This document shows positions 8,101 through 32,400 of a stretch of 64,000 nt of DNA, piece after piece (position 1 is the stretch's first letter; every line of letters begins with the position of its first letter). Under the pieces are notes generated by a model. The model saw only the letters and a list, made by a program, of their open reading frames with translations. It did not search any database and had not been told where the DNA came from. Origin of the DNA: Antedon mediterranea (lineage: Eukaryota; Echinodermata; Crinoidea; Comatulida; Antedonidae); assembly GCF_964355755.1 (NCBI RefSeq), contig NC_092680.1, positions 19,817,001 through 19,881,000 of the forward strand. Reading direction: 5' to 3'. The position numbers were made by a program, and so were the translations under genes.

Positions 8101-11100
8101 AACCAGGCTTTAAATGATGGGTACCTATCTCTTGTATGTTAACAGTAGTGAAAACTCATGAGGTAGATTTTGCTGCATGACGTCACAGCACATTTATGGT
8201 GATGGCTGTATCTTTGCTACTGTAAATCAAGTTAGGTATACTATTACTGTGGTAAATGCTATACACTCTTTTACTAGGTCCTTATACAGTAGAACTCTAG
8301 GGACAACCTCAGGAGTGTGTGTCGCCACAAAAAATGTGTAGTGACTGGACTGAAGATTAAACGATTTTGAGTATGAAACAAGAAATATTTCTTACTAAAA
8401 ACGTTGCTCAACCTTTTAACGTAACATTTGCCAATGTCGGCAAAACAAGTTTATCCTCAGTATTTTCAACAGGGTGTAATCTGATAGTGTTTCTCAAATA
8501 TCGAATTTAAATAACTACCCGCGCAAATGAGCAACTTTGTAAACTCGACAAATTTGTAAGTACATGCTCGATGACCCAAAGCACGTCTGAGAAAAAAGAG
8601 TCTATGAGATTTATGCACCTCTGACAGAAATGAGAATTTGTAAACTCTTATATCGAAAAATGGCGTAGTTCATAAATTGCTGACTGAGGGCGCAATTTGT
8701 TTACTTTGTTCGTAGCTAAAAACGATTTTTTCGGTTATGTTTTAGACCCTATATTTCAAAAACTACAAGTCAGATTTTCATATTTCTTTTTTTATTGTAA
8801 TATAGATACAAAATACAAAAATTAGTTTGAAAAATATTTCTGAAGATCACTAATTAAAACTGTTACAGTATGTCAACAAGTCGAGCAGCATTTTTTTGTA
8901 AGGACTATTTCTTGTCTTAAAACTGTTATATCAGCATTTTCTGGGTTTTATTGCTTTCAATTTCATTACCTTGTCTACATAATGTCTTGTTCTTTTGATG
9001 AACGGGCAACCGACTGTGATGTTATATTTTTTGTAGCATCTTTCGAGCTAACGACGTGTGTATTTTTCAGTGCTTTAGCTTGCTGCTTCCATTTTGTAAG
9101 TGTAGATTTATGGATTTTCAAATCAGGAAACTGTTGACAGGTATTTTGAAAGGAAGCATCATCTTTGTTTTGTTGTAGCCATTGTAATACATTTTGTTTA
9201 AGCGTGCAAACATCAAGTTCTTTTTTCACCAGTGCCTTCCAGCGACAAAAGGAACTTACCGTTAGACCAATATAATGTTTTAATGTCTCTTTATACGTGA
9301 CATCAGCGTTATGTGATCTTATGAATTTCATAACCTGTTGGCGAAAGAACTTCTTAGTAACCACACTTTGTGTAAACGTCTGTTCTTGTATTTTCGCATC
9401 TGTATTTAATTGGGTTTCTAAGTTCGTTGTCTGGTGGTTATCCACTGGTATATTAGTGGCAGAAACCGATTTTCTTAAAACTGTTATATCAGCATTTTCC
9501 GGATCTTTAGATATTGATTTAGTAGGCCTACTTTGTCCTTTTGATGTCAATTGATCGCTTTCATTACCTTGTCTACATGTCTTGTTAGTGTCTGGTGCTG
9601 TGTCTTGTTCTTCTGATGAACGGACAACCGATTGTGATGTTATATTATTTGTATTTGCAACAGTAGAATCCATTGTCAGTAAATCAGATAGTGTTTCATT
9701 ATTTGTTCGTTTGTTATAAGCTACATTATCAGATGTTTTTGGCAGGTTACTTATTATATCCATTTCAGATGATGGTGAATTTGAAACAATTGAATGTTGT
9801 GTTACAACTGATTTCATTTTTCTTCTTTTTAGCAGTTTTTCTTTATTTTGTTCAACTGGTTCAATTGGCTGATGTGCTTGATCTTGCACAGGTTTATGGG
9901 TATCAAGTGTATACACAGCTATATAGGCAGGTTGTCCTGACATGGTTGGTACAGACACCAATTTGTCATCATCTGATTCTATACAAGCACCTGTCTTATT
10001 ATTCCTTATACAGGAGGTATAATGTCTAGATGATGTCGTCATTCCAAGAGGTGCAAGAGTTGACTGTAACAAATACTGTACATCTGAACCAGTGACAGTT
10101 GGTAAAGACAGTGTGTTTGATGTCAGACCAGAGACATCACTTTTTAGTCCAGGACTATGATCTATTTGTAAAAGAATTATCAGCACAGACGGTGCTGTGT
10201 GAATAACTTTTGTTTGTAATGCCTTGTTGAATGTACAGGCAGTACATAAAAAGTAAATACTATGAGGTTTTGTTAAGGAATTTAGTAGTGCTGTGTGCAT
10301 GGTTTGTGTATCGTTTAGTCTCAAAACATAATGATTTGATTGATCTATTGTTGTAGATACATTACCACATGAATTGCAGGTAATGGTTTGTTCCAATGTG
10401 ATTTTACATGGATCAGTTGGCATATGTTGTAATAATGTTAACATGTACTCATAAGCATCAGACTGTTGGCCCAAATTGAACAATTTGCTATTGTCTGTAA
10501 TTTCCTTCAAAAGTTGTGCAGAAAAATTAGTGAACTGCTTGTAGTCATTACATAGCAGAGTCTTTTGTAGCAATGACGATTGTTTTTTGCATTTGGTGCT
10601 GTAGAAATAACTTGCAACAGAACGCAGAATTTGGATGACTGCATTATGGCAGCAATTGTCAAAGTCATTGTGTAGTGGAATAGGTCTTGCCGTATCTAAA
10701 GTTAAAACAGAATGAACAAATGTTTTCACTCTCAGTCATTAAGACATGCAATGTTGATCAAAATGTGATTGAAAGACCTGACAAGGATCATTAATAATAT
10801 CATGTCACCAATTCAATGGCCCTAAGGGTTGCAAGATCAATTCTCTGCTTCATTATTTTTTTTTTAGTTTCCGTTTTTATAACACTTTTATTGAATTATT
10901 ACTGTACTGTATATTAAAAATTATATTTTTTATATACAATGTACCTACAGTATGTCAAACTGTAAAATGGCGAGTACAATCAAGAACATTGTTCAAGGTA
11001 CAATATAATAACAACTAACCTTTACGGTTTGTGATGTTATCACTACTGCATATCGCGTCTAACTATTACAGTATGTTAATAACATAGTTCTTTATGCTCT

Positions 11101-14100
11101 GATCAATACTATAACGTGTATCTGTTTTTATAATAGTTGTCAATGATGTATTATAATTATATTAACAGCTACAACTTTAAAACATTCCCAATTCAATTAA
11201 TCGGTCCGACTCTGAATACAATATTCACACATCAAGTTGTCTAGGGTCAGAACCTATACAGATTGTCGTACATTATGCATGCATGCCAATATTGGTTTCA
11301 AAATTGTTGTTACATTTTGAACAAAAGTATGTTTTATTTATTAATCAGTCCAACTTTTCAGTCTTAACAATGACCCTTTCCACAATACATAAATACCGTA
11401 TTAAAAACTGAACTAAACAGTAAATGAAGAGAAGTATTATTTAATATGAATATTATTTCCAACTAACTATTAGGTCTATGAACTTGCGTTCAGACACAGA
11501 TCTGTGTCATTCCTATCAGAAATAAAACCACAATACAAAACCTATTTTGTTATATATAATTATATTAGGAGAGGGGCAACAAACAAATACTGCACAAATC
11601 CTTTTCTGGATAATTATTGGAGCAGGTGTTCCTCTGATACTCTGCTGCTAGACTGAATGTTCATCTGATCTGATCATAAATGGTTGGACACCCACCCCCA
11701 TCCCCATCCACGGCCTATAGGTTGACAGCCACAATAAGGTTTTGACCATTATTCAATGATTATTGACAGTGAATCATTATAATACCTGCCTAGGTTGACA
11801 TCCATTTATTGAACAAGATATTACAGACTCTGAATATTATCAGCAAATGTTTTCATAGACTCTCTTTTCCCAGACGTGCTTCGGGTTTGAGCATGACCCG
11901 TTTAAATTTACAAATTCTCAAATCTTTCAGCCTGTAGTACTGAAGCTTCCACTTGATATAGCTTCTTAATGCTTCTGTCCTCTCGAACATACAGTAACTG
12001 CCTATAAAGGCACGGCGCGAAAAATGTAATTAATAAAAATCAGATCAGTTAATTTAATTTAAAAAAAAAATACCTTCGATGGCTTCTACATCCCCTTCAA
12101 GTACCTTCTGTAATCGTTCCCGTACATCTCGTACCCGGTCCTCTTGGTTTTTTATATCGGTTTCATTAACGACAAATTTGATACACAAAGGTTGATCAGA
12201 GTTGATGTAAACGTCTGGATTCTTTTCCAATTGAGACTAAACATTCAATAAAAAAAGAAATTCCAAATTACAAAATGAATGCTATGTTCGTCATGGCAGT
12301 TAATGATGTTATATGCAGTATGACAATCATCATCAAATGAAATACGTAAAGAAATTGTAAAAAATATTACAACAATTTATTGTACACAAATAATTTTTAT
12401 TGTGGTAATCGGAGATAATTTTCATTTCAAAAATTTTATTAGCAATAAATGATAATCGATGAAGTCTCTGTAAGAAACACACTGTAGTTTTATGTTGTAT
12501 TATTTGCTAAATCGTTTTATGAATGTTTAGAAATAAAAGGTAGTTTGAATACTGAAGCATTTTGCTATACGGCTGAAAATGTTCACTTTTGCAGTGGCGT
12601 AAAGGCTATGAGCGCTCACTGGCTAAACCCAGAGGCCCCGCAGCTAATAGGGAGCCCTCAGGAGGGCCCGGAGGAAAAATAAAGGCATTAACTTATGATA
12701 CTGTATATCGTACTGTATTACTGTACAGTAATATAGTACCACAATAGCAATACAATATGCAGAATTATATACTGGACGTATTATATAAATACTGTAGCTT
12801 GAAAATATTCTTTCACATTTTATTCATAAAACTCATAATGTTAAAAGCATGCTGTCTGAAAACTGTTAATAGTACTCTGGACACATCAGATACATTAACA
12901 TTATTATAGGAATTGGCAATGATGTGTATTCCATGGGGAGTTACTATATTCATGTTGAGCAATAACAACGCAGCAGGAATCGATATCTTTAACATTGGTC
13001 ACATTCATTTCATACAATGTTGTACTGACAATGACATGGTTGAAAGATATACCATGATCAGTTAACTTAAAGATTGTCCTGAAAATGTTTTTTTTTATTT
13101 TTTTTATTTTTTTGTTGAATATGCCATTTTGATGTTCCATAATAGTTATCCAGTTTGACCAAAAATTGGAGTGAAAAATAATATTTATTTACCTAAAAAA
13201 AAAGCAAAAAATAGTCATATTGGCTGCCAGCCAATGAATGGGTTTTTGGTTGAATTTGAATAATTTGTCGCAGAAAAAATTGGAAGATGTACACATGATG
13301 CACAAATAAATTAAAAAACTGAGGTTTTTGATTCACGTCTAGTAAAACATTTGCCTAGTAAAAAATAGGCACAAGAAATGGTCTCTTTCATGGCACAAAA
13401 TTTAGATATTTTTTATCATTTTCTTTGAGAAAAGAAAACTGATGAATTAATCTGTAAAGCATTTTTAATAATTTATTTGTTGACTTTTTGAATGGGTGAA
13501 TCGCACAAAAAAGTGGTGCAGAATAAAAAATAAACAAAAACAAATGTTGGAAAACAATAAAGAAAAATAGACTATTAAAAAAATAACGAAACATATTTAC
13601 AGTACAATGTTTTACAATTTTACTTTCATGTAATATAGCATTTTAATTTGCAGGAAAAAATATAATAATGTAGAATATGATATTAATAAAATTGTAATTG
13701 TACTTTTAGTTTTACAATGAAAAAAACCACTGTACTTTACTAGCCAATTGTAATTCAAGTTATTAAAAGTAGAAAAAAAAGAAATATATAGGGATATTAA
13801 AAGACTATTATGTTTTTAACGACTGTGCTTTAAAACATTAAACATATTTATTTTTTCCAAATAGTAGATGACTCTCTGAACTGTGTCTATAATTTACAGG
13901 CAAATTTTCTAATAGTCACATTATGCATCATAAGGTTATATAAACCCTAATAACTGTGCCACATATGATACATATGTGACACAGTATCTCAGAATTTGAC
14001 TATGCTACTGTGAAGATAATGAGAATTGGATGGAAATAGTATAATCAATAGTATATTTTACATGCATTTAGTAATAAATTATTTTATGATTTTGAAAACA

Positions 14101-22370: not shown

Positions 22371-22971
22371 TTCCTTCTAATAATACTTACGCTTGGTTAA
22401 TGCTTTGAATTCTAACGTGAGACTACGTTTATGGATACCACCATTCCAGAAGTTATTTTAAGCACTGCCCTCCACCACAAATAAATCAGTCGACTGAGCT
22501 AAAACGGTCATCTTGTTTAGGCCTATGGCTAACTAGTTAATACTAGTTCGTTGCCTCAAAATAAATATGCATATTTTCATTCATTTTCATTTTAATCTAC
22601 GTTGAATTCTTTTCTACGATTTGAGACTAATATGTGCATTTTTATGATGTGTTAAAAAGCTAACATTTCTAAAAAATGCTTAATTGGCTTAAAAATGAAC
22701 CCAAAAATACAGAAGGTGGATGGCAACATTTTCCATTATTTTTAAAAGAAAAACACTATTTAGTGATTGGAGAGCTGAAAGTAGTCAAAATAGATCAATT
22801 ATACCCCCGCTACGGCGGCCACACGCGACATGACTGAATAGCTGATAATTGTCTATTGACGAGCTTATTACTGTACTATTATTAATTCATCGTGTCGTCG
22901 TAATGCATATTCATGACCGTCATCTAGAAGAAAAAAAGCTTGTATTAACTAATTTGTAATCAAAATTACTG

Positions 22972-23250
22972 GTTAGCTTAATCGACTGAGCAGCGTCGTG
23001 TTGATAACATGAATGTCGTGGGTTTGAACCCCACGCTGGTGGAATAGAGTTAAAGCTATGCGGGCTATTGGGTTTGTCCTCACAGCATTATACGTCCTCC
23101 TTTCCACCACACATCATGAGACAGCACTAGCAATGCATCTGATGATAATGTGGTGGAAACGACCGTACCCAAAAGGCTATGGCAGGGCCTTAGTGCTGAG
23201 GCAGGGAGAGCACACTTTTTTTTTGTGCCAACATAGAATTCGATCTGATA
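22972..23250 (+). mobile_element. tRNA-derived SINE, family S3
   Basis: GGTTAGCTTAATCGACTGAG (A box region) and GTGGGTTTGAACCCCACGC (B box with a good T stem) are followed by a body with no acceptor-stem partner and an internal GCCTTAGTGCTGAGGCAGGG hairpin. That excludes a working tRNA and fits a SINE. Confidence 0.75.
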
Positions 23251-28886: not shown

Positions 28887-29426
28887 TTATGCGCTCATCC
28901 CGAGTACATCTTTTCTGAAATTAGGGGCTGTGTTAAGAATGACTATGGTCGCAATAATCAAGTAGATACTAAAGAACACCAGTCCAAAACGATCTAATAC
29001 CATCGCAGCATACTTCCAATCTCCCACTACCTCTTCATCTTCGTCAATTTTCTTAAATCGCTCTGTCATAAAGTGGAGTTCATCTAGCACATTGTCCATT
29101 TTTTCTCTACTTTGAGGTATTCCATGATTGTCGCGACCAATAATCGTCTTATCCATAAGCCCATCTTGATTCTCGTGGTAGCTTGCATATCTGACTCCAA
29201 TCACACCCGCAGAGCCTTGTTGGTGTAGCGTCAGTGGTGTGCGTCCATTATTCTGATAACCAGCGGTAGCGGCCATCTTCCTCCTGTAACCAGGTGACTG
29301 GTCGAGCATCTCGATTTCCATTTCCTGATTACTAAGGTTACCTTTCTTGAAGGGTCCTTTAAAAATATGGCCAGGTCTGCTCATGCGCAGAAACCATGGA
29401 AGCCAATCAAGACATATTTTTTTCGT
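28887..29426 (-). CDS. nAChR exon 9 (cytoplasmic loop, TM4, stop)
   Basis: Acceptor TTTCTTTTTCAG. Begins [20 protein letters not shown], ends with the amphipathic helix before TM4 ([15 protein letters not shown]), TM4 and VLGMSA-stop. Confidence 0.96.
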   Translation of the reverse strand, partial: TKKICLDWLPWFLRMSRPGHIFKGPFKKGNLSNQEMEIEMLDQSPGYRRKMAATAGYQNNGRTPLTLHQQGSAGVIGVRYASYHENQDGLMDKTIIGRDNHGIPQSREKMDNVLDELHFMTERFKKIDEDEEVVGDWKYAAMVLDRFGLVFFSIYLIIATIVILNTAPNFRKDVLGMSA

Positions 29427-32400
29427 CTGAAAAAGAAAACAAGAATAAATCATTATAAGCATATCTTGGAAATACATTTTTGAAATCTAAATCTTATATA
29501 CGGTTTGCTCTTAATTCAAAAACAAAAATTAACTATAATTGAAGAGGAAAGCCAAAACATATCTCGAAAGATTGCCCACGGAAATATTTTATAGGAAATA
29601 TTTATAAATAGAAATAAATGTTGTGTTTTGGTGTATTAATCCGGAAAACACATTTAAATAGTATGTAATTGTTGTTGTAGTAAGCTGATTTTGTATATAA
29701 ACTTGTTCTTATTAAGCGTACCGTTGGCCCCATTGTGTGTGTATCTGGGTTACGATGATGGAAGTTCAGTATCGTCATTGTCAGTAGTACTGCCATAGCA
29801 ACCATTAACAACATGGCGCTGAAATAATTTGCTGAAATATGAAATAAATTTGAAATTATTATTTTAGTAAAATTACCAAATACTTTGCAACCCAGCAATA
29901 ATTGCAAATTATCTTGGTGAAGATTGACAAAATGCTTGACCTTAATTAATTGGCGTATTTTAAGGTATAATTTCGATATTAATGATCATTCTAAAAATTG
30001 TAAAATTATTTAATAAACAACGGTATAGTAGCTTGATAATTTTTATAATATTATCAATACAAGACGTAACGCCAGGGAGTTAAGTTACTTGATCAGTTAT
30101 TTTTCTCTGCTCTGACGTAATTTCATTATTAAACTTTAAAAATAATTAGGCTAACTAATACAATTACTTATACGTACATAGCATAGGTGATGCGTCCGAT
30201 GTTGGCGGTAGACTTTCCGTAAATATCATCATAAAAACGGTTAATGACAGCAGAATTGTGACAGCTAAGATAAATAATCGATTTAAAAAAGGTATTAGTA
30301 ATGCGTCATATTAATAATAATAAAAGAATATTAATCAAGTTTAAAATAAAAGGAAGATGCAATCAAATGTTTTCTTGAGTAAATGTAAGTAGTAAGTAAG
30401 TAAATGCAAAATATGTCCTTGTGTCTACATAGTTTAGTTTGAAAATATAGACTATGCTGAGAAATTTAAGAAAACTCAGCTGCAATTAACGAATCTAATA
30501 AGTCTTTGTTGTTGCCATATAATTCTGAAGATAGACACAATTAAAGTTTTATAGTCTATACATGAAGGAAAAAATAATTTTATAATAATTTTTTCCTCAT
30601 GGTCTATACTATAATAGTAAACCAATATTTTTGAGTTTGCAAAATCGGAGTTTGCAATTTAGTTTACTCTGCAAACTTAATGTCTGTATTTTGTCAACCG
30701 GTTTACACTAGCAAACTTCTCTTGACAAACTTGCAAACAAAAGTAGCCAGTGTAGACTGGACTTTAAAGAACCTCTATACTGTGGAAAACTCGAAGTTTA
30801 GGCCTACAAACTTTTGGTAAAATAATTGCTAGTGTAGTGTACCTATAGGCTTAGTTAATGTAAATTAAAGTGTCCCAGCGACTATTTCTTCAGCGAGATA
30901 TATCGATGAGCTTATTGGAAAACTCACCAAATGATAATTTTTCTCCAGTGTCTGGTGGGAGGGTGAATACAAGCAACATCAAACTTGAGATGAGTATGCA
31001 AGGCATCACTAGATTCATGGCATAATACAGTGTCTTACGCTTGAGTTTTATTACGAACGTTATATCGATAAATGGGTCATCACAACATGGGTAGTAAACC
31101 ACATTTCTCAACACGTCAACACCTAAAAAATTAGTAATAGTTGTTATCATTTCATGGTCGTCATATCCTTTATAATTATGATCACGTGGTCATCATGACA
31201 ATGCTTATTATGCCGTTATAAATATCGTCCATGATAATGATATATTACGGTAGGCCTACTAACTTATCGTTATTATTATAGTAGGCCTACGTCATGTCAT
31301 GTTTCCAATTGTGTCAGCAGTGATCGGCGTGTGGATCTAGAATTTACTCAAACTTTGAGGAATCGAAAAAGTAGTCATCACGATCTATCATGATGACGTA
31401 ACTACTTCCGAGGTCATAGGTTGTCGCAAATTGAAAACTCTGTAATACATTTATCACGGCAATTGTCCCCATCCTCGTGAACTTTTATTTCTTTACTGAT
31501 GAGCTGCAATATTGATAAATGTATACTGTGTATTACCCTTGAGATGCCACTCTCCGTTTGGTTTGAATGTACTTATATCGCCCTCTTCCGTCAGTTTTGT
31601 GAGATTGATACGCCCTCCATCATAGGTCCAGGATCCGAACTTTAGCGTGCACACCTGGTCGTCCCAAGGGAAGTTTGTAACATCAATTGAACAAGCACTC
31701 TTAAAGATACCTGGTGGGATCCACTCGCAACTACCCGATGACCCCACGACCACATTAGAATGATAAGTGGAATCAAAGTTTTCGTTTGCACTAAAAGAAT
31801 AATAATATTAGTTTTTTATATAAAATATATTTCAATCAAACAAATAAACAAACGATAAGCAAATGTAAATTAAAGTTTATAATTATCAACATGGGAGATA
31901 TACTTCCATTCACATAAATCAGAGTAGGCCTATATAACACAAATATCGAATCCAACTCTCGCCGCATTGCTTGTATACTTTACAAGATATTTTACTTTGC
32001 CTTTAACCACCCAGGTGTATTGCGGTATTATGAGTACCCGGTTTGATCAAGACAACTTTGCGTTGATTGCTAGCTGCTTTATATGAGTATGTTTCCATAC
32101 ATGTTTGATCCAAAAAAATGACCGGGGTAATAATGTGAAGCGCTTAGAAGCATTGTGCAATAAGCTATAATATTAACGAATATTATTATATAATTTTCGA
32201 ACTGATGGGTAGAGTTTGATATCTCGTATATCTCGTAATCAGAGTACAGTATTATAATCATAATTTTCGGACTTGTGGTAGAGTTTTTATATCCTCATTT
32301 TTATCAAAGTATTATTATAATAATCTTCGGACTGGTGGTAGAGTTTTGATATCTTTGTCATCAAAGTATTACTATAATAACTTTTGGACTGGTGGTAAAG

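Follow-up and report, generated by a model that had tools for sequence, protein, structure and literature searches.

What kind of protein joins a USP deubiquitinase domain to a tail resembling tandem helix-turn-helix (HTH) repeats, and does it belong to the host's chromatin or to a transposon? The question is raised by a stretch of 64,000 nucleotides from the crinoid Antedon mediterranea (C11:19817001-19881000, hereafter the window), which we studied within a 354-Mb assembly of 18 contigs. A preliminary description had placed such a fusion at 8975-10729, strand not given, and had suggested a new kind of chromatin or transposon protein. The reported stretch proved to be a single minus-strand frame of 586 codons; 20 Markov shuffles of the window each gave a longest stop-to-stop frame of between 103 and 158 codons. 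On present evidence, a transposon-carried USP deubiquitinase is more likely than a host chromatin enzyme. The parts of the frame are listed here, with residue numbers following the 584-aa frame.

10735-8978, minus strand: open frame, stop to stop, 586 codons, with a USP domain, a linker and two HTH-like units (compared with Markov shuffles).
10669-9911, minus strand: USP (Peptidase C19) domain, residues 21-273 (Pfam UCH and alignment to 8bs9).
10654-10652, minus strand: catalytic Cys26 (alignment to USP36 structure 8bs9).
10024-10022, minus strand: catalytic His236 (same alignment).
9973-9968, minus strand: Asp253/254 (same alignment).
9910-9350, minus strand: polar linker, residues 274-460, including a DNA stretch, 9893-9747, similar to short transposon copies.
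9349-9218, minus strand: HTH-like unit 1, residues 461-504 (repeat score; HTH_23 match below cut-off).
9217-9059, minus strand: HTH-like unit 2, residues 505-557 (repeat score; HTH_Tnp_1 match below cut-off).
8912-9035, minus strand: partial, shortened duplicate of the linker stretch 9470-9653 (self-comparison).

The assignment to Peptidase C19 held. Pfam UCH matches residues 21-273 over profile positions 5-254 of 254 (E 1.3e-9; 38.5 bits, cut-off 23.9) and is the sole above-cut-off Pfam match in the window protein, in which Pfam detects neither Herpes_teg_N nor OTU at E up to 1. Every USP motif previously noted by eye was found, namely NDFDNC (21-26), LGQQSDAYE (86-94), the CxxC pairs CNSC (118-121) and CTAC (162-165), HYT (236-238) and AYIAVY (268-273). 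In an alignment of structure 8bs9 (USP36) with a profile built from the window USP and its nearest paralogue, the USP boxes were matched by Cys26, the QQ-D-A-E box and His236, and Asp253/254 fell at the Asn-Asp box. Cys26, His236, Asp254 and the four zinc cysteines are unchanged across three transposon USPs of the genome; the window USP is predicted to act as a deubiquitinase. Like the cellular USPs USP36, USP46, USP12 and USP14 it has the family's catalytic boxes and zinc-binding CxxC pairs; it differs from cellular USPs in its Cys box, NDFDNCCHNA, and in shuffle-level scores against two presumed cellular USPs (see below). Searched alone against PDB sequences, the window USP returned nothing at E up to 1, and a single-sequence AlphaFold2 model of the domain was uninformative (mean pLDDT 33). 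An NCBIfam search gave no family. A viral or phage origin was considered and rejected: phage records held no relative at E 0.01, and 239 pattern matches in viral contigs yielded 0 confirmed.

The start of the frame is less regular. Its earliest in-frame ATG is at residue 98 of 586, downstream of the catalytic Cys26, and similarity to a related USP on C3 begins at residue 5, so that either an exon further upstream or damage to the start has to be assumed. Because there is no in-frame ATG before the catalytic cysteine, the copy of the gene in the window may be incomplete or dead. At the other end, positions 8978-9035 of the linker duplicate lie within the frame, and the remainder lies past its stop.

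The two units of the tail are related to each other (alignment score 50, against 19.6 +/- 3.8 for shuffles, with 0 of 5000 as high), so the tandem repeats of the preliminary description are real, and it is their HTH identity that stays below threshold. With the repeats searched alone, HTH_23 (E 0.012; 15.9 bits, curated cut-off 24.6) and HTH_Tnp_1 (E 0.026; 15.2 bits, curated cut-off 24.1) both matched, but no HTH family in the repeat region exceeded its Pfam cut-off, and two unrelated families did comparably well (Xre-MbcA-ParS_M, E 0.026; p55_CTD, E 0.014 over residues 431-489). An AlphaFold2 model of the region, made from the single sequence without an alignment, has two groups of three helices each that would fit HTH units, at a mean pLDDT of only 44. 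The top match among PDB sequences had E 0.99, PHROGs gave a chance-level match only (E 0.18), and no second genomic copy of the region appeared at E up to 10 among the best candidates scored. That the tail consists of tandem HTH-like units of transposase type is a fair reading of its sequence, although unproven. The tail may bind DNA, as the preliminary description proposed.

Relatives of the USP within the genome give clues to its origin. When the genome was searched with the window USP, the matches listed were the query itself and C3:8303153 (28-32% identical, E 1.7e-12). The latter belongs to a transposon-like locus, C3:8299549-8304712 (L001:50-5213), whose second frame encodes both USP (1.7e-20) and Ulp1/C48 (9.8e-19). 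The long frame of this locus, which we ourselves read as a transposase (Pfam names none), has distant relatives at two other loci, L005 and L006. Decayed copies of the C3 element are present on C4. L005 (2624-5387) has a PHD finger (3.8e-8), both relatives contain NTCTIDNLL, which by eye resembles a cysteine-protease box, and they are perhaps Rehavkus-like, a name that we take from part of PMC6446971.

Pfam UCH (PF00443) has 71 matches in the genome, including one at C7:13812479 that is followed after 3-4 kb by a match to Helitron Rep (4.1e-6). At this locus, successive frames on one strand encode, in order, USP (2.1e-20), a coiled-coil-like stretch, Rep, PIF1 (2.7e-18) and Pif1 2B.

C7:13812350-13820255, all on one strand: Helitron with USP (L035:6351-9845 and L036; Pfam).

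A second copy of this type is found on C1 (L037/L038, minus strand); its main pieces are 94-99% identical, and it is interrupted by another element. A search with the C7 USP gave 12 matches in seven places, on C7, C1, C2 (two), C11, C5 and C10, with pieces on C2, C11 and C5 being 87-96% identical and the C10 relative 41-43%. Smith-Waterman z-scores of the window USP were 26.5 against the C3 USP and 12.8 against the C7 USP, in contrast to 0.0 and 0.5 for two presumed cellular USPs (the two strongest of the 71 PF00443 matches, of which the one on C5 covers profile positions 64-254 only). At E up to 10, the matches listed for the window USP did not include the C7 USP, and for this pair phmmer gave no hit and blastp 1.5e-7. 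By these alignment scores, the window USP is related to the transposon USPs of the genome and not to the two presumed cellular ones.

Other deubiquitinase classes are carried by a rolling-circle element of the same genome. A Helentron at C7:6468831-6478022 (L025:1832 to L026:1122) has an uninterrupted frame of 3064 codons with OTU (5.7e-10), Herpes_teg_N (VTD; 5.8e-9), Rep, PIF1 and endonuclease domains. Rep frames of comparable length are numerous in the genome.

The DNA around the frame shows that it lies within a transposon, as the following features summarize.

12027-8376, minus strand: transposon of ~3.65 kb with the frame inside; start TTTTTCGCGCC.. at ~12027 and end ..AAGAAATATTTCTTGTT at ~8376, ends common to L019-L022, L024, L003 and L004.
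12025-11296, minus strand: 5' part of the transposon, in separate pieces 69-83% identical to an abundant family (DNA comparison).
8429-8376, minus strand: 3' terminus of the transposon, including the 14-bp palindrome AAGAAATATTTCTT (repeat copies).
8854-8922, plus strand: inverted second copy of the family's 3' end (repeat comparison).

A DNA search with 12000-8500 gave at least 78 matches among the best 40 of 1245 candidates; nearly all of those listed fall within 11991-11404, and a few within 8838-8654. The full copies L019-L022, which are 92-98% alike, start with CGCGCCGCGGC behind a T and run to GTAAGAAATATTTCTTGTT; L019 and L020 measure 3362 and 3689 bp when trimmed to approximately these ends. 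Similarity of the window to the first six copies begins at 12023-12025 in five and at 11991 in the sixth, and the family's 3' end is found at 8429-8376 on the same strand as the start. Since both family ends lie on one strand and ~3.65 kb apart, flanking the frame in correct order and orientation, the frame is inside one element. This gene-carrying element occurred once in genome searches in which the best candidates were scored. One subtype of the 3' end occurs 401 times in exact form across the genome (reversed control, 0). Positions 8536-8607 are an inverted piece of the transposon's 5' part, and together with 8854-8922 they perhaps represent a small nested relative. A separate piece, 8654-8838, shares 83% identity with a further dispersed repeat of ~1.1 kb (L015-L017), which in L015 spans TAGGGATA.. 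to ..TATCCCTA and is perhaps a different kind of transposon.

Part of the gene is itself shared with shorter members of the family. The linker DNA at 9893-9747 is 71-76% identical to seven of eight short copies and 83-86% identical, in two pieces, to the eighth. In L024, L003 and L004 the start, the linker piece and the end follow one another in the same orientation; L003 and L004 are segmental twins, 97% alike over 5 kb, so that with L024 they amount to two independent insertions, not three. Neither family end was seen in L002; L029-L032 lay outside the end test, and L028 is the L024 locus again. Length differences to the window that are inside the piece and common to nearly all copies are 18, 3 and 3 nt, multiples of three that would fit a coding past; others are 5 and 11 nt, at the edges, or private to a copy (1, 2, 4, 17 or 19 nt). 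Base differences were about equal at second and third codon positions (5, 11 and 12 for L002), with no third-position excess across the eight copies counted, among which L032, in two pieces, has counts of 16, 18 and 18 that include misaligned bases. Given the non-triplet differences and the lack of a third-position excess, a coding history of the linker piece is only suggested by its sequence, and the piece bears no sign of purifying selection.

The features of the family resemble those of Helentrons and their relatives, the HINEs, which are described as having subterminal inverted repeats, a 3' palindrome, T-rich ends and TT insertion, often with internal tandem repeats (PMC4067079, in part). 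Subterminal inverted repeats are present in L019 and L020 (CGCCGCG/CGCGGCG) and in L024 and L003 (CGCTGCT/AGCAGCG), varying between subfamilies with both ends changing together; some AT-rich 7-mer inverted matches in relatives are probably due to chance. The window copy has none of at least 7 nt. The 3' palindrome is found in the window, L019, L020 and L024, and is absent from L003. T runs stand at most ends, and no target-site duplication is evident, as judged by eye from the flanks. Of 87 Rep matches in the genome, four families were compared for ends, and none of the stretches fetched (L025/26, L027, L033/34, L035-L038) contained an autonomous element with the ends of the window element. 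One candidate partner, at C1:29681497, was rejected because the 3' end 8.9 kb downstream of it belongs to a separate copy of ~600 bp. As the window copy shows no inverted repeat of that length and no autonomous partner was found in these stretches, the label of Helentron/HINE-like rolling-circle transposon, based on sequence features, is probable. The likeness to HINE/DINE-1 elements lies in the inverted repeats (in relatives of the window copy), the 3' palindrome, the T-rich ends and the high copy number; the difference is that those elements are described, in the sections of PMC4067079 that bear on them, as non-coding, some of them having captured fragments of genes.

No transposase was found in the window element by tblastn with the C3 and L005 frames. 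An origin of the gene in a C3-type transposase element was likewise rejected, the best match of the C3 frame and three L005 frames in the window having E 0.17; this applies to what still stands in the window.

Upstream of the element, on the same strand, is a gene for a methyl-DNA-binding protein.

21480-12074, minus strand: MBD2/3 gene, several exons, one intron of ~7 kb (MBD, MBDa and MBD_C matches).
12236-12074, minus strand: last conserved MBD2/3 exon (MBD_C, profile positions 49-94 of 94; profile match).

The transposon starts ~50 bp past this exon. The window also contains, at 3-1673 on the minus strand, a 557-codon frame that by eye resembles LINE endonuclease/reverse transcriptase; at 28890-31807, again on the minus strand, exons that by eye resemble a nicotinic acetylcholine receptor subunit; and at 22967-23042 on the plus strand a tRNA match of 29.3 bits (cut-off 29), perhaps a pseudogene or SINE.

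How the frame should be understood depends on which of several readings best accommodates these observations. The one we favor, at about an even chance of being right, is that a non-autonomous rolling-circle-like transposon of Helentron/HINE type carries as its cargo this frame, made up of a USP, a linker and an HTH-like tail. It could also be a captured or decaying fragment of a transposon or host gene, functionless and open only through its youth. The missing in-frame ATG ahead of the catalytic cysteine, the single copy (best candidates scored), the linker part duplicated and decayed past the stop, and the linker comparison with no third-position excess all agree with this. However, 586 codons are free of stops while the surrounding repeat is 17-31% diverged from its relatives, and the catalytic residues are retained. 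Nor did a parent gene turn up: among the best candidates scored, in an assembly that may have gaps, the next USP is only 28-32% identical, and nothing at E up to 10 duplicates the HTH part. We regard a functionless fragment as unlikely, although it is the strongest of the competing readings.

The remaining readings assign the protein to the host. As a domesticated gene for a DNA-bound deubiquitinase, with repeat copies merely on both sides, it would be an intact, single-copy frame adjoining a host gene amid common family repeats (401 exact 3' ends in one subtype), with a parallel in nematode F-box proteins that captured a transposase HTH and are kept by selection (PMC12062965, in part). Against this, the start and end are ordered and spaced as in one element, and the linker piece is found between the same ends in short copies elsewhere, which means that part of the gene's own sequence has moved; we consider such a host gene distinctly improbable. 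Splicing of the USP-HTH frame onto MBD2/3, which would create a methyl-DNA-binding deubiquitinase, is invited by the shared strand, the ~1.4 kb between them, and the agreement of the exon end at 12074 (GAAG|GTATTT) with a candidate exon start at 10695 (pyrimidine-rich acceptor), both in phase 1. Such agreement is expected by chance in one case of three, weak similarity to transposon USPs extends upstream of the acceptor (residues 5-11), and AATAAA motifs lie in between, so we give this fusion hardly any weight. Of the two roles first envisaged, that of a transposon protein is therefore backed by the position of the frame between repeat-family ends, and a host chromatin role has no support in the present analysis.

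For transposon cargo of this kind, a possible mechanism can be outlined. A transposon would have landed immediately behind the conserved part of MBD2/3, bringing a USP from a lineage that other transposons of the genome carry too. The tail would tether the enzyme to DNA, plausibly to that of the transposon or to a replication protein on it; candidate targets are the ends of the element itself and the Rep/helicase by which it is moved. There the USP could remove ubiquitin from proteins at the DNA, and transposition proteins might thereby escape proteasomal removal, or local repair and chromatin marks might be edited. Of this account, the frame, its domains, the element ends and the kinship of the transposon USPs are shown, and DNA binding, substrate and benefit to the transposon are inferred.

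Ubiquitin proteases in transposons are already in print, so the element is not alone of its kind; what sets it apart is the USP class and the HTH-like tail. Helentrons carry VTD and OTU deubiquitinases, with VTD enzymes tested, and Helitrons have been proposed to benefit from deubiquitination, with different classes of enzyme serving it (PMC9741609, in part). Ginger and Mutator elements contain OTU and Ulp1, and in Trichomonas one protein combines transposase_11 with Peptidase C19 (PMC2836005, in part). Among the best-ranked open-licence papers, a scope outside which Repbase falls, none was seen to describe USP or C19 in Helitrons. Like the VTD/OTU Helentrons, the window element is probably a rolling-circle-type transposon with a papain-fold deubiquitinase; it differs in that the enzyme is a USP (C19) with an HTH-like tail and the element lacks Rep/helicase, whereas the C7 element has its USP ahead of Rep/helicase. 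The cut-and-paste transposons with ubiquitin or SUMO proteases (Ginger1, Mutator and protist transposases) offer a similar cargo; the window element differs from them in having no detected transposase, and it is the genome's C3 element that combines USP with Ulp1. Caenorhabditis F-box A2 proteins also join a ubiquitin-system domain to a Tc1/mariner HTH, but they are described as E3 adapters with a single HTH in a host gene family (PMC12062965, in part).

These comparisons suggest that transposons recruit the USP class as they do the two known deubiquitinase classes. We tentatively propose, as a possibility short of probable, that USP is a third deubiquitinase class in rolling-circle transposons, besides OTU and VTD. 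This rests on the C7 and C1 Helitrons, in which it lies ahead of Rep/helicase; the window would provide a free-standing USP with a tandem HTH tail in a small non-autonomous element, able to sit on DNA and act at the transposition site. This bears on why transposons carry ubiquitin proteases. If three unrelated deubiquitinase classes are indeed found in the rolling-circle elements of one genome, deubiquitination itself, rather than a peculiarity of one enzyme, is likely what the elements need, and a USP with a DNA-binding-like tail outside Rep/helicase would make that need testable with a single small protein. It would also offer a plausible route to host genes that fuse ubiquitin enzymes with DNA-binding domains.
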